From Rhodospirillaceae bacterium (GTDB lineage: Bacteria; Pseudomonadota; Alphaproteobacteria; MPNO01; UBA2964): 47,438 bases of DNA. Of the stretch, positions 40,766-46,706 are shown in pieces. Each line of letters opens with the position of its first letter. Positions within the stretch are counted from its first letter, which is position 1. The translations under genes and the position numbers were made by a program. The stretch lies in NCBI GenBank assembly GCA_002709075.1, contig PAPV01000002.1:122465-169902 (forward strand), read 5' to 3'. The notes under the pieces are model-generated. The model saw only the letters and a program-made list of their open reading frames with translations, did no database searches and was not told the origin of the DNA.

Positions 40766-41130
40766 AGTCCAATAAGGGGTTTCGCTATTTTTTTTGGCAG
40801 AGCATAATACACGTAGGAGACAAGTAGTCTAACAAATGCGTTTAAGTCAACAGAATCATTCACCTTTTTGAACTTAAGATTTTCATTTCCATAACTTATT
40901 AAAACATAGAATATTGAATATGAGAATCCTTCAGATTAAAAAAAGGTATCTATTTTTGTGAAATTACTGGTGCCAAATTGGTGCCAAGTAGATCCTACAA
41001 AAAAAATACTCTGTCATTTATAATATAAATAGAAGAGTAGGCGATAGTCACTTAAATCTCTGGGTCTATCATCAAGTTGCCAGAGATTTCTAATTCAAGT
41101 TAACATTATGTCTATCAACAGCGATCATCA
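40766..41130. other. Boundary region between chromosome and accessory block
   Basis: 365 bases with no coding frame. It contains the 9-base direct repeat TGGTGCCAA at 40968-40976 and 40979-40987, and a perfect 10-base inverted repeat at 41054-41089. Gene type and base composition change across it, making it a candidate left edge of the mobile element. No tRNA gene is seen here. Confidence 0.45.
41054..41089. repeat. Perfect 10-base inverted repeat
   Basis: AAATCTCTGG (41054-41063) and CCAGAGATTT (41080-41089) are separated by 16 bases. There is no T-run after it, so an operator, a recombinase site or the upstream region of the MORN gene is more likely than a terminator. Confidence 0.6.
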
Positions 41131-42051
41131 ATGAACATCAGGATAATTATTATTCGTAAAATACTCTCTATATCTTTTGCTTCTTTGTTTTTCCTGTTCA
41201 GCACTGCATTGGAAACCTATGCTTTGCCTATATGTAAAGGAAGCTCCGCTAAGGAAGGCGATAACGTTTGATCGTGGACGAATTGTAAAGGCACGTTCAC
41301 ATTTGCTGATGGACGAAAATACGTAGGTGAATTCAAGAATGGTAATCTCCATGGTCAAGGCACGTACACATGGGCTGGTGGTGAAAAATATGTAGGTGAA
41401 TACAAGGATGGTAAGCGCCATGGTCAAGGCACGTTCACATTTTCTAACGGTCATAAATACGTAGGCGAATGGAAGAATGGTCAGGCGCATGGTCAAGGCA
41501 AGGTCATATGGGCTAACGGTGATAAATACGTAGGCGAATACAAGAATAATAAGCGCCATGGTCAAGGCACGATCACATGGGCTGACGGTGATAAATACGT
41601 AGGTGAATTCAAGAATGGTCAGGCGCATGGTCAAGGCACGTACACATATGCTGATGGCAAAACGTATGCTGGGATTTCTGTGGACGATGGCCTTACAGGA
41701 AAAGTAGGCCTGAAATATTACTCAAGGGAAAAAAATGCAAGTAACTCTCAATGGAGAATAGGGAACATCTACGCTGGTGGTCTTGGTGTCCAAAAAGACC
41801 TTCACAAAGCAATTGAGTACTATACTAAGGCAGCAGGCAAAGGTCATGCAAAAAGCAAATCAGCATTAGATTCCATAAGAAGAGAACATGAGCGTAAAGC
41901 TCTTGAAGCTTGCATGTTTGAGAACATTAAAAAAGTTACCAATGATAAAACGGAACGTATTGTTAAAAAATACTGCCAAAATGAAATAGCTGAGAAGTCT
42001 CTTAAAGAACTACTACCAAAACAAAAGAGAAAAAGAGCTAAGTGGTTTTGA
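41131..42051 (+). pseudogene. Secreted MORN-repeat/Sel1 protein interrupted by in-frame TGA
   Basis: ATG 41131 opens a 307-codon frame broken only by TGA at 41269-41271 (codon 47). Codons 1-34 encode a signal peptide (LSISFASLFFLFSTALETYA). After the stop come SWTNCKGTFTFADG and six MORN motifs (YVGEFKNG..HGQGT), then a Sel1-like repeat (IGNIYAGGLGVQKDLHKAIEYYTKAA) and a basic tail. The stop replaces what looks like Trp (TGG to TGA) before SWTNC. No ATG follows until 41680. It is therefore either a nonsense-mutated gene or one translated by readthrough. MORN repeats bind lipids or mediate envelope contacts. Confidence 0.75.
41320..41664 (+). repeat. Tandem 69-base MORN repeats
   Basis: Five consecutive units with an exact 69-base period; copies of TACGTAGGTGAA-type sequence start at 41320, 41389, 41458, 41527 and 41596. 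They encode 23-residue MORN units (YVGExKxGxxHGQGT). Copies are similar at the DNA level, so unequal recombination may change their number. This is coding repetition, not a CRISPR array. Confidence 0.85.
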
Positions 42052-42082: not shown

Positions 42083-42147
42083 ATAAAAAATAGTCGTATA
42101 ATGATATAATACGCTAACTATAGATTTACTGTAGTTGATCTTCTTTC
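42083..42147 (+). repeat. Promoter-like repeat, copy 1
   Basis: It begins AAAAAATAGTCGTATAATG and continues with TAGATTTACT inside a short inverted repeat (AACTA/TAGTT), then a pyrimidine-rich stretch. It lies between the convergent MORN gene and the gene at 42193, so anything transcribed from it on the plus strand would run antisense to that gene. Confidence 0.6.
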
Positions 42148-42523: not shown

Positions 42524-44470
42524 TCATTCTATAACCAAACCTTCTATTAGTTCTTTCGTTGCATCTTTACAAAATCTTTCTGCTTTTAATTCTTTACAGT
42601 ATTTCATCCATACAGGAAGTGTATCAAATTTTCCTATCACCCCCAGCATCTTCATAATTTCTATTCTCTCAGGTTGTTTTCTCCATTGTTTAAACTCCTT
42701 CAGAGACTGTTTGTGTCTTTCACTTACGTATTGTTTTCGTTTACTCAGTGGATGTATTTCTTTTTTAGGCATCCAGACAGGCATGGGTTTTTCACTCTTA
42801 AAGACTCTCCCATCAGATGATGTCCATTCTGAATAAAATGAACTGTTCAACTCATCATCAGACAAGCCACTAAATTTTTGCCACACTCTATTCATTTGCC
42901 ACTTAAGATCTGATGCATACTCTTCCCATATTAGGTAACTGTCATGGACTGCCAGAATTGGAATACCTCGTCTGGTGAATGTTGATAAAATCGCCTCTGT
43001 AATTTGAGAATCTAAATACTGAAGCTCCATGCCACCGCTTCTACCTAGATAATTAGCAATGGGTTTGTGCTTCATTCTGATAGCTTCAATGTATCGTTTT
43101 AGCCGTTTATCATTCAGAGGTTGATATTGCTTAGAATAATTAACTCCTGTGATTTCCCTGATCCTTTGTCTGGTAGCTAGTATTGCTGATTCATCAGACT
43201 TCGTATTCACGAGAATAAGCATCAGTGTTTTGATTAAGGTACGTTCTCTCTCTGCCACACTGGGTAAAGTGTTAGATCCGTACACAGAACTGATGCTGCT
43301 TTGTACTGCACCACCATGATCTGAGTTGGTATGCGGATTTAATTCTTTGAACTGCTCACTCAGATCATAAGGATCGTTATCTTCTCCATATTCTTTCCAG
43401 TAATTGATGCCTTTTCTCGCATAGAGAAGAACTGGGTGGTGAGATGAATAATCTATTTCAACAGTAGGATAACCATCTATGCGTATAAATTTTCTATATT
43501 CACGAGGTATCTGTTGCCAAAAACCTCCATAGAATCTTCCACCTTGTCTAAAACTATTATTGTTAAAGACTCTGTAAACGAAGTTTCTTTGGTTAACGAA
43601 TATCTTTTTATTTTTGCCATCTCTTGGCTTTGTAAAGTCTCTGCTTTTACGTTCACCATTCTCTGTTTCATGTTCAATATAGCCCCTAGGAGCTTCATGC
43701 TTATTTACCCGTCCTGTAGCTAGATCAATATTTTCTTGTACTTGATCTGGATTGTCGTCATGAGACCACACATAAGGCACATCTGTATTACACAGATCTA
43801 TGTGATGATGTTGAAGCACCCCATTATACTCACACAGGAACCAGCCCATCTTCTCCACTTGAGGTGTATCTTTATATTCAACAGCTATTTGTTGTGGTCT
43901 ACCGTACTCATCCTCAACCTTCTCGTGCATAACGATTAGATCACGATTTCCAACAACAGGTTTGCCATCTATCACATCTAGATCCAACCTCAGATCTAAC
44001 TGGTGAACTCCTGCCTTTACGAACTCTTTTACTAGAGTTTCAGTAGGCCAAATCTTTGTATTTTTTTTGATACCTGTCTCTGGATCTTTAAAGCCTTTGA
44101 CCCAGTTGATTAACCCAGCATCAGATAATTCATCTTGAATATCTATAATTATTCTACTGATGTGCAGTTTGTTGTATCTGCTACCAGCTCTGTAGTGAGA
44201 GAGTGTCCTTGAGAAACCAGTTACTAATTGAGGATCGTCCAACCAATTAACGTAGAGGGACAGGAGTAAGACCTTCAGTTGTCGTTTCTTTTTAGAGTGC
44301 CACTTTTTACTGTCTGAGTTACTGCCAATAGCAGTGTGAATGTATTGATCATAAATACGATTAACAAATTCATTTACTTCTGGATAATCAGACCACGTGT
44401 GAACATCTAATTGTCTAGAATGATCTAGATCAAATTCTTCAGGTAAATCTTCTCTTTCTAATTTAGGCAT
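42524..44470 (-). CDS. Polymerase-like protein with family A/T7-type motifs
   Basis: 648 residues, no family name recognised. The C-terminal half carries, in the right order, motif A VEIDYSSHHPVLLYA (Asp340), a motif B-like Arg-x3-Lys (Arg410, Lys414 in RTLIK), a helix MELQYLDSQITEAIL, and motif C PILAVHDSYLIWEE (His509-Asp510). This order and the HD pair match family A DNA polymerases and T7-like RNA polymerases. The Tyr normally found in motif B is absent (Leu418, Asn422). The N-terminal 300 residues match no exonuclease or primase I know. It starts under an inverted copy of the promoter-like repeat and is divergent from the HTH operon, as a replication gene might be. Confidence 0.6.
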   Translation of the reverse strand: MPKLEREDLPEEFDLDHSRQLDVHTWSDYPEVNEFVNRIYDQYIHTAIGSNSDSKKWHSKKKRQLKVLLLSLYVNWLDDPQLVTGFSRTLSHYRAGSRYNKLHISRIIIDIQDELSDAGLINWVKGFKDPETGIKKNTKIWPTETLVKEFVKAGVHQLDLRLDLDVIDGKPVVGNRDLIVMHEKVEDEYGRPQQIAVEYKDTPQVEKMGWFLCEYNGVLQHHHIDLCNTDVPYVWSHDDNPDQVQENIDLATGRVNKHEAPRGYIEHETENGERKSRDFTKPRDGKNKKIFVNQRNFVYRVFNNNSFRQGGRFYGGFWQQIPREYRKFIRIDGYPTVEIDYSSHHPVLLYARKGINYWKEYGEDNDPYDLSEQFKELNPHTNSDHGGAVQSSISSVYGSNTLPSVAERERTLIKTLMLILVNTKSDESAILATRQRIREITGVNYSKQYQPLNDKRLKRYIEAIRMKHKPIANYLGRSGGMELQYLDSQITEAILSTFTRRGIPILAVHDSYLIWEEYASDLKWQMNRVWQKFSGLSDDELNSSFYSEWTSSDGRVFKSEKPMPVWMPKKEIHPLSKRKQYVSERHKQSLKEFKQWRKQPERIEIMKMLGVIGKFDTLPVWMKYCKELKAERFCKDATKELIEGLVIE

Positions 44471-44490
44471 AAACTTTTTTCGTGCTTTAG

Positions 44491-44510
44491 CATTATACGA
44501 CTATATTTAT
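44491..44510 (-). promoter_or_regulatory. Inverted partial copy of the promoter-like repeat
   Basis: On the minus strand ATAGTCGTATAATG reads toward the polymerase-like gene, whose ATG is about 20 bases downstream. TATAAT serves as a possible -10; no good -35 is visible. The UTR is very short and lacks a clear ribosome-binding site. Confidence 0.5.
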
Positions 44511-44576: not shown

Positions 44577-44642
44577 GATAAAAAATAGTCGTATTATAAT
44601 ATACTACGATAATCTCATAGATTTACTATGATTGTTATCTTT
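44577..44642 (+). repeat. Promoter-like repeat, copy 2
   Basis: AAAAAATAGTCGTATTATAA followed by TAGATTTACT within a hairpin (CATAG/CTATG), then a pyrimidine-rich tract. It lies about 90 bases before the first gene of the HTH operon and probably drives it. Confidence 0.6.
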
Positions 44643-45428: not shown

Positions 45429-46391
45429 ATGCTACGTTTAAGCGGGTTATTATTCATCCTTTGTTCTATCTCACTAAATGTTGCCCCCACCGCAGCAGCT
45501 AAAGAGTACCCAGTCGGCACGAAACTGAGAGATATTGTTCAAATAGATTTCAATTCCGGTTCAAGAGCAATACCGTTGCCCCCAGGACAATGGGAGGTCG
45601 CACTCTCGAAAAAATGGACGGTTAGCAATAATAATCTTTCCGATATTAGCTTTTATGGCTCCTACCTCGTTAGGATTGAGGGCAAAAAAGTAACAGGAGC
45701 TCTATACTACAACACTCCCGCAGATTTACCAGATTTCGGGTGGGTTGGAACTGGAATTTGCGAAAACAGCAAACTTCGACTTAGAAGTTGGATTCTTGAG
45801 GGAACAGGGAGTAAAGGGGATCCCGCATTAGAAGATTGTCTAGGCTTTAGCTGGCTAAGGGGTTTTAACGTCAGATCGAAAAATGTTCAGAAGGTGTTTA
45901 ATTATCTCTCCCAAAAAGGAGTGACCCGAGAAACAATCCCTAATGGGTGGTTTCGACTAATGCGAAATTACAGTTCAGACGAAAATCTCATAAGGATTCG
46001 GCTTTACCTCTCTACAGAGGCGGCCGGATTTCCAAGAGAGCCGAAATTTTCCTACTCAGACTCACCATGGATGCCTAATAATATTGCCACTCATCCAAAA
46101 AAAAAGAAGTTTGTTGATCAAGCTAAAGGCTGGGCTAGAAGTTGGAACGATTTGATTACGAAGGGCATCAATAACCAATTGACACTTGGAGCAGTTCAGA
46201 GCCATAGCACTATAACTGGCATGTATCATAAGACTTCTCGGGCCACGTTACCAACCCAAAAAGGGTCCGGCTCAGACGACAAAGGTGATGTGACGGCAAA
46301 GCTGAAAAAGCTGAAGGCAATGTTCGAAGCTGAATTGATAACTCAGGATGAATACGAGGCGAAAAAGAGCGAAATACTATCCTCAATGTAA
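45429..46391 (+). CDS. Secreted protein with C-terminal SHOCT-like helix
   Basis: 320 residues. A signal peptide (residues 1-24, LSGLLFILCSISLNVAPTAAA) is followed by a beta-rich region starting YPVGTKL and a cysteine pair (GICEN, DCLGF). The end (VTAKLKKLKAMFEAELITQDEYEAKKSEILS) is a SHOCT-like oligomerisation domain. No function is recognised for the main part. A purine-rich GAGAGGGGG lies upstream. It stands alone, after the HTH operon. Confidence 0.7.
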   Translation: MLRLSGLLFILCSISLNVAPTAAAKEYPVGTKLRDIVQIDFNSGSRAIPLPPGQWEVALSKKWTVSNNNLSDISFYGSYLVRIEGKKVTGALYYNTPADLPDFGWVGTGICENSKLRLRSWILEGTGSKGDPALEDCLGFSWLRGFNVRSKNVQKVFNYLSQKGVTRETIPNGWFRLMRNYSSDENLIRIRLYLSTEAAGFPREPKFSYSDSPWMPNNIATHPKKKKFVDQAKGWARSWNDLITKGINNQLTLGAVQSHSTITGMYHKTSRATLPTQKGSGSDDKGDVTAKLKKLKAMFEAELITQDEYEAKKSEILSSM

Positions 46392-46639
46392 TTCCTCAAT
46401 TTAGAAATGGAGTTGCCGCCTCAGTCCATAGCGATTTATAGAGAGAGATTTTTAGTGTATTCTAGTCCAATACAACTGCCTTAGAGATAGTTCCCCTGAG
46501 CCAATACAGAGCGTTTAAGAGAGTATTCAAAGAGCCGCACACAGAAATACAGGAGTAGATAAAAACAAGATCGTCATCATCATCTTAATTAGATGAAGGG
46601 ATACTCATTACCAGACTATTTTAAGTCGGGTGCTGTAAG

Positions 46640-46706
46640 ATAAAAAATAGTCGTATAATGATATAACACGAGTACGTAGCTTAGATGTACTTTGGTTCTT
46701 TATCTT
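46640..46706 (+). repeat. Promoter-like repeat, copy 3
   Basis: It begins ATAAAAAATAGTCGTATAATG and continues with TAGATGTACT, which lies in an AGTAC/GTACT hairpin, then a pyrimidine-rich tract. It precedes the secreted protein gene at 46935 by about 230 bases on the same strand. The intergenic region 46392-46934 also holds a 30-codon ORF at 46801-46893 that I cannot support as a gene. Confidence 0.6.

Follow-up and report, generated by a model that had tools for sequence, protein, structure and literature searches.

The locus and its genes

The window, by which is meant the whole stretch of 47,438 nucleotides of Rhodospirillaceae DNA that was analysed, carries on its minus strand an open reading frame for a protein of 648 residues, with its start codon at 44470 and its stop at 42524; the initial annotation gave these coordinates and named no strand, and the plus strand across the same interval holds many stops. 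The gene, its conserved motifs and the features that surround it are as follows.

42524..44470, minus: polymerase gene, 648 aa, of divPolA2 / TV-Pol type (open reading frame, PHROG_4756, AlphaFold2 palm, divPolA2 profile match)
43955..44437, minus: winged-helix-like domain at the N-terminus (residues 12-172), a candidate for DNA binding
43514..43540, minus: GRFYGGFWQ motif, residues 311-319, counterpart of RGRVYA in T7 RNA polymerase and TGRLSS in Pol I
43433..43459, minus: motif A, residues 338-346, with catalytic D340; H345 lies at the position of Pol I Glu710 and T7 RNA polymerase Gly542
43202..43243, minus: motif B, residues 410-423, with R410, K414 and N422
42935..42955, minus: motif C, residues 506-512, LAVHDSY (LIHDSF in T7 RNA polymerase)
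42086..42113, plus: conserved site downstream of the polymerase gene, pointing back at it (0 mismatches, 0 expected)
44481..44508, minus: conserved site located 10 bp before the start codon and directed into the gene (1 mismatch)
44581..44608, plus: third site copy, pointing off the polymerase gene, toward plus-strand genes
46643..46670, plus: fourth site copy; the roughly 250 bp that precede it recur at the end of contig C12
45098..45310, plus: excisionase-like HTH_17 gene (Pfam HTH_17 1.4e-6, TIGR01764 2.1e-5)

The excisionase-like gene that had been proposed next to the polymerase is real, and probably belongs to the same element; the rest of that element is not visible, because the polymerase gene lies 3 kb from the contig end. 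Adjoining the excisionase-like gene, a secreted protein with a SHOCT domain at its end is encoded at 45429-46391 of the plus strand. A gene for a secreted MORN/Sel1-repeat protein, with a 69-bp tandem repeat (41279-41726) and one in-frame stop, occupies about 41100-42051 of the plus strand, and a similar MORN protein carrying a trypsin domain (L140 9764-11140) adjoins a second copy of the polymerase, which is found on contig C15 of the same genome and is 39-60% identical to the first in pieces.

Predicted structure and catalytic motifs

The window protein is a real but very divergent polymerase. PHROG_4756, a family labelled as of unknown function, matches it at 7e-49, and a phage RNA polymerase PHROG does so weakly (0.028), while no Pfam, NCBIfam or PADLOC model fits and searches of the PDB by sequence or profile returned no relevant match. 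Assignment of the polymerase to a defence system was dropped, PADLOC being without a model for it. PHROG_4756 was also found in 26 of 27 diverse homologues, a set in which Pfam polymerase models had no matches; likewise, models of family A (Pol I type) in Pfam and NCBIfam matched neither the window protein nor 26 homologues.

That the protein contains the palm of family A/T7 polymerases had been suggested from its motifs, and structure prediction with AlphaFold2 and homologues bears this out, the best matches being polymerases. The full-length model (61 rows; pLDDT 80.8, pTM 0.83) aligned best with the apicoplast DNA polymerase 9qsc (Z 10.5, rmsd 4.1, 249 aligned), then with yeast mitochondrial RNA polymerase 8atv (9.7), T7 RNA polymerase 1h38 (9.2) and Klenow 1kfs (8.4), gaps of about 1 Z unit that would not decide between a DNA and an RNA polymerase; Foldseek placed the same polymerase groups on top, with E values of 3e-4 to 1e-3. 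The N-terminus, which had been called unrelated to known exonucleases or promoter-binding domains, indeed displays no exonuclease domain, but when residues 12-172 were modelled alone (pLDDT 89, pTM 0.83) a weak, consistent likeness to winged-helix proteins emerged (S19e- and S10e-kind ribosomal proteins, PadR and MarR; Z 5.7-6.8, none outstanding), and this domain is likely, if not firmly, a winged helix.

Asp340, Arg410-x3-Lys414 and His509-Asp510 lie exactly where the initial annotation had located them, and all five residues are invariant in 61 homologues that are 23-37% identical to the window protein, as are G311, R312, R326, E338, Y368 and N422. Because the peptide used for retrieval spans residues 311-318 only, conservation outside that stretch was not imposed by the search. 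The Tyr of motif B is absent, as had been noted, the position eight residues after K414 being Asn422, where T7 RNA polymerase has Tyr639 and E. coli Pol I has Tyr766. In the motif register, the sugar-gate pair of Pol I is replaced, Glu710 by His345 (58 of 61 homologues) and Tyr766 by Asn422 (61 of 61). These positions, Glu710/Tyr766 in Pol I and Gly542/Tyr639 in T7 RNA polymerase, determine the choice of ribose versus deoxyribose, and both thus appear to be changed in this family. Judging from motif spacing in the sequences, the exchange of Glu for His would set the family off from DNA polymerases, and that of Tyr for Asn from both DNA and RNA polymerases.

Distribution and relation to described families

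Homologues were detected in 20 of 385 sampled alphaproteobacterial genomes. The degenerate peptide GRF[YW]G[GP][WF]W yielded 235 encoding stretches in GTDB genomes, from which 79 loci were kept, mainly from the Roseobacter group, SAR116 and other alphaproteobacteria, with a minority from bins named Desulfovibrio, Nitrosomonas, Comamonadaceae and Cyclobacteriaceae; many of the sources are draft sequences or metagenome bins. Among phage records, the window protein has 114 matches and a phage homologue has 221, with ICP1 and 115 Rheinheimera phages included, and the PhAER-3 homologue used as a query retrieved MG592441 and the 115 Rheinheimera phages. Phages PhAER-3, 2L372X, VPMCC14 and 277E43-1 hold two to three family members per genome at variable places, as if these were self-mobile. 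The closest orthologue of the window gene (L052 6340-8274), at 63% identity, is interrupted by either an in-frame stop or a frameshift, and its contig also encodes a second, intact polymerase, with an integrase between the two. In three genomes of about 1.4 Mb (L005, L031 and L032) the homologues have a degenerate motif B, with no Lys, and RD in place of HD; these are perhaps inactive forms kept in small genomes.

A profile of the family matches AUR84708, the divPolA2 representative, with an E value of 1.5e-26 at Z = 100,000, and the window protein therefore belongs to the divPolA2 family, which was described in tailed phages with repair DNA polymerase or RNA polymerase left as options for its role (Yutin et al. 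2024, PMC11348598). As in the phage proteins, the catalytic palm is kept, the 3'-5' exonuclease is absent and an unrelated N-terminal domain of its own replaces the known thumb, and here too several copies often occur per phage; unlike the phage copies examined, the window gene is chromosomal, lies in an integrase-bearing type of element and has flanking sites.

The second described group is that of the TV-Pols, which occur in alphaproteobacterial and other mobile elements beside a resolvase or a lambda-type integrase; some have a helical domain at the N-terminus that was left unassigned, and primase plus polymerase activity was predicted for the group (Iyer, Abhiman and Aravind 2008, PMC2579912). 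The present family shares with them the catalytic Asp pair (D340, D510), the hairpin Arg (R312) and the RxxxK of the fingers (R410-x3-K414), each in 61 of 61 homologues, as well as the stand-alone format of 400-600 residues, the frequent occurrence in alphaproteobacteria, the integrase or resolvase neighbours in mobile elements and the lack of a nuclease domain. Some TV-Pols are reported to be associated with a D5 helicase (PMC2579912), a pairing that the elements inspected here did not show. Ma-LMM01 gp030, taken as a TV-Pol by its position beside a transposase, gave no match by HMMER or hhalign with single sequences; kinship with TV-Pols is thus suggested by the agreement of the tested features and the chromosomal context, a comparison by description rather than with the sequence of a named member. 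The initial annotation had proposed the replicase of an undescribed element: the gene family does reside in a class of mobile elements, but the family itself had already been described, as divPolA2 and, for its context, among the TV-Pols.

A more distant comparison is offered by SCCmec CcPol, filed as a TV-Pol, which is active and functions as a primase with its partner MP (PMC7581432, PMC10061031). Like the CcPol-MP and PolA-SSB primases, the window protein is a family A-like polymerase of a mobile element, which it may likewise serve; CcPol is near Pol I, is devoid of the N-terminal domain of many TV-Pols and is accompanied by an SSB and a helicase (PMC7581432, PMC10061031). Neither an OB-fold partner nor a helicase was found among the window neighbours scanned, where the contig ends before the element does, or in L119, an element of three genes described below. 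A 2026 survey of bacterial DNA polymerases recognises, within family A, PolA1, PolA2, PolA3 and a minor PolA1-like group (PMC12926913).

Mobile elements carrying the polymerase

The family resides on small mobile elements of marine bacteria, 5-12 kb in size, integrated at tRNA genes and equipped with an integrase of the tyrosine type. Of 83 loci, a good many of them short contigs, 46 have a tyrosine or serine recombinase no more than 6 kb away, and tRNA genes adjoin the integrases of polymerase loci; the C15 copy of the window's own genome has an integrase 1.8 kb off, beside tRNA-Val. Complete elements are bounded by direct repeats of tRNA ends (att repeats):

L119: 4,942 bp, 40-bp repeat, tRNA-Gly
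L058: 7,223 bp, 67-bp repeat, tRNA-Leu
L098: 7,923 bp, 66-bp repeat, tRNA-Val
L079: 8,518 bp, 82-bp repeat, tRNA-Gly
L083: 12,000 bp, 112-bp repeat, tRNA-Val

The smallest, L119, has three clear genes, which encode an integrase, a caspase-domain protein and the polymerase, the last being its sole replication gene. In this it recalls the PICMI satellites, whose minimal element consists of an integrase, AlpA and one replication gene, and which employ an unrelated primase (DUF3987/DUF5906) and a fis site (PMC10803314), where the present elements use tRNA-gene integration and a divPolA2-type polymerase. Cargo genes encode caspase-domain and DUF4062 proteins (L119 7449-8513; L098 11238-12593), the DUF4062 protein matching the candidate defence family PDC-S60 of PADLOC, as well as Sel1 and UPF0149 proteins.

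Conserved sites facing the gene

A site of about 25 bp, AAAAACGTcTtAGTAATGGAA, lies upstream of 29 of 70 family genes and of 1 of 695 other genes, and 58 copies occur within 3 kb of a polymerase gene (502 kb) versus 6 elsewhere (698 kb). A matrix derived from the upstream sequences of polymerase genes, independently of the window motif, converged on AAAAACGTcTtAGTAATGGAAaAag, and its scores are bimodal, with 30 of 80 loci at 19.8 or above and the others at 7.3 or below (99% null, 7.2). At a threshold of 14, upstream sites point toward the gene in 34 of 72 loci and in the opposite direction in none of the 72, counts that are in part a product of fitting, since upstream copies served to train the matrix; downstream copies, which stood outside the training, point inward in 18 of 74 loci and outward in none of the 74. 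The fair tests of the site are its orientation and the other-gene and downstream controls, and the counts are not independent events, because many loci share ancestry. About 30 of 78 loci (about 40%) have no site above threshold, and in only 4 loci do both sites lie within 600 bp. The link between polymerase and site is a statistical and not a physical one. Between loci whose polymerases are 30-35% identical, TAATG is 98% identical, the 8 middle bases 44% and the flanks 25-26%; the middle bases track polymerase identity (Spearman 0.33), whereas the flank does not (0.05).

The four copies in the window, against 0 expected, represent a 28-bp motif that approximates AAAAATAGTCGTATAATGATATAACACG and has the layout of the matrix consensus (A-tract, 8 bases, TAATG) with other middle bases. 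A scan of the whole genome for this motif, admitting at most one mismatch to the core plus the pre-gene copy, found it only in the polymerase region and at a single position close to where contig C12 ends, and five copies of the window type surround the orthologue in a sister genome; the two genomes carry their own version of the site, almost only in the element. The C12 copy follows a tyrosine recombinase by about 90 bp and has about 250 bp of flank in common with the window, at 85.5% identity, and C12 may carry the missing part of the window element. The common stretch measures 249 bp (window 46423-46671, L163 11097-11343) and is inverted; at the C12 end, it adjoins the recombinase gene, which is split into two overlapping open reading frames. 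When an inverted pair on the two sides of the gene was searched for independently, the window and L052 gave 18/20 matches, above all shuffles, while paired sites around the phage homologues examined were not above shuffles.

Other occurrences were considered individually. Copies after the second polymerase in L140 and L052, initially viewed as hairpin terminators, instead fit the site matrix (17.6 and 19.3), and matches inside the integrase genes of L056, L058 and L103 are coding sequence (KRLSNVLEG), taken as chance. A site of the C15 type, AAAAACTCATCAGTAATGAGA, is present in a relative (G007:C2:258000-269000; L165 4924, minus strand), off its known polymerase fragment.

Inverted repeats and att sites in Rhodobacterales

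In Rhodobacterales (Roseobacter group) the sites are located within inverted repeats of 245-492 bp, mostly 95-100% identical, that flank the polymerase:

L065, 447 bp, 100%; L112, 345 bp, 100%; L110, 245 bp, 100%; L101, 351 bp, 100%
L096, 367 bp, 100%; L100, 492 bp, 99.8%; L109, 464 bp, 98%; L078, 301 bp, 98%
L106, 382 bp, 96%; L092, 277 bp, 95%; L113, 341 bp, 85%

In seven of these loci the repeats start with the final 17 nt of tRNA-Gln, either TCCTACCACCCCAGCCA or a version that differs by one base, and all eight repeats examined hold an inward site 126-187 bp from the outer end, those of L110 and L092 being below threshold. In L112, L113 and L065 the polymerase is the sole open reading frame of at least 90 residues between the outer ends. 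Three att cores are visible in L110, L101, L100 and L109, in the order direct, inverted, direct, the inverted core having both arms; in L110 and L101 its right arm keeps 94-100% identity across 300 bp, and in L100 and L109 the identity is lower. By this arrangement, the excised circle of these four elements would hold two inverted att sites, with the polymerase in one of the halves that they delimit and the integrase in the other.

The yeast 2-micron plasmid carries two inverted tyrosine-recombinase sites within long inverted repeats, a likeness that is one of geometry only and concerns some Rhodobacterales elements. A rather unlikely, speculative extension is that a primase-polymerase with a His/Asn gate starts at the facing promoter-like sites while the inverted att repeats allow integrase-driven inversion and amplification, as a bacterial counterpart of that plasmid.

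Possible roles of the polymerase and its sites

Taken together, the fold, the existence of minimal elements and the sites, which pair inward and are nearly absent before other genes, favour a polymerase that initiates in a site-dependent manner and replicates its small integrative element, a reading as a primase-polymerase that we hold tentatively, at slightly less than even confidence. The element's tyrosine integrase would excise the element, after which a single-chain polymerase that has a predicted palm and fingers of family A/T7 type and a winged-helix-like N-terminal domain, but no nuclease, would recognise the short sites, each made up of an A-tract, 8 variable bases and TAATG, that lie on either side of its gene and point toward it; a new strand would be started there without a primer, and the element copied. 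The putative His/Asn sugar gate may permit starting with, or mixing, ribo- and deoxynucleotides. The CcPol-MP primase of SCCmec (PMC7581432) is counted as published precedent for this reading, and the site-less loci, the scarcity of loci with both sites close by and the unpaired phage copies are counted against replication; in addition, some elements may borrow host functions, so that a lone polymerase need not be a replicase.

The layout of the sites would fit transcription as well, and the strongest rival, because of this promoter-like layout and the HDS of motif C, is a T7-like single-subunit RNA polymerase that would use the sites as promoters to transcribe its own gene along with a few others of the element, a possibility that we consider unlikely but serious. 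The palm, the RxxxK, the HDS(F/Y) of motif C and the GR(F)Y hairpin all resemble T7 RNA polymerase, the predicted fold fits the mitochondrial and T7 enzymes about as well as DNA polymerases, the order of A-tract, 8 bases, TAAT and G is like that of a T7 promoter, 4-5 site copies surround genes in the window and L052, and such a role was considered for divPolA2 by Yutin et al. (PMC11348598). However, the site precedes almost no other gene, the downstream copies face back into the polymerase gene, and the Tyr of motif B, kept in both T7 RNA polymerase and Pol I, is Asn throughout; the protein is also about 200-400 residues shorter than T7-like enzymes, and its N-terminus differs from that of T7. 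No Pfam RNA_pol match was obtained and the family profile was not significant against T7 RNA polymerase; HMMER and hhalign with single sequences provided no link to either T7 RNA polymerase or Pol I. The simpler notion of a promoter before every element gene, raised by the multiple copies in the window and L052, was overturned by the 1 in 695 count at other genes and by the inward arrangement.

Less probable still is autoregulation, with the sites as operators to which the winged helix or another element protein binds and with the polymerase engaged in gap filling, repair or another job unrelated to them. The position of the upstream copies, 45-240 bp ahead of the start codon, the TATAAT contained in the window version of the site, the divergent HTH gene close by and the winged-helix-like N-terminus would all agree with operators, but the inward copies after the gene would be left unexplained, and TAATG is kept across phyla in a general consensus that has no sigma-70 -10 box. 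That the sites and inverted repeats serve the integrase rather than the polymerase, as arm sites or as a switch whose inversion would reverse the polymerase gene, is improbable. The location of the sites within inverted repeats, 126-187 bp from the att core, in Rhodobacterales would agree with it, but L098 and L119, which have no such repeats, carry the site next to the polymerase gene and at a remove from the att repeats, and the site is retained in loci with different recombinases.

Implications

The family (phage divPolA2, PMC11348598) and its chromosomal context (TV-Pols, PMC2579912) are already known; what is new is the DNA around the gene, with conserved sites that face it from both sides. 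No description of the sites, the inverted att repeats or the His/Asn sugar gate was found in the open-access papers searched. The reports on TV-Pols (2008) and phage divPolA2 (2024) pose one question, that of DNA replication, priming, repair or transcription, and the match to AUR84708 ties numerous chromosomal genes to divPolA2. The flanking sites supply a concrete DNA substrate with which to address this functional question, and suggest where the polymerase may start copying DNA. If the enzyme does start synthesis at the site, it would be a primase that belongs to neither the DnaG nor the AEP family, or else a promoter-specific RNA polymerase distinct from the T7 group.
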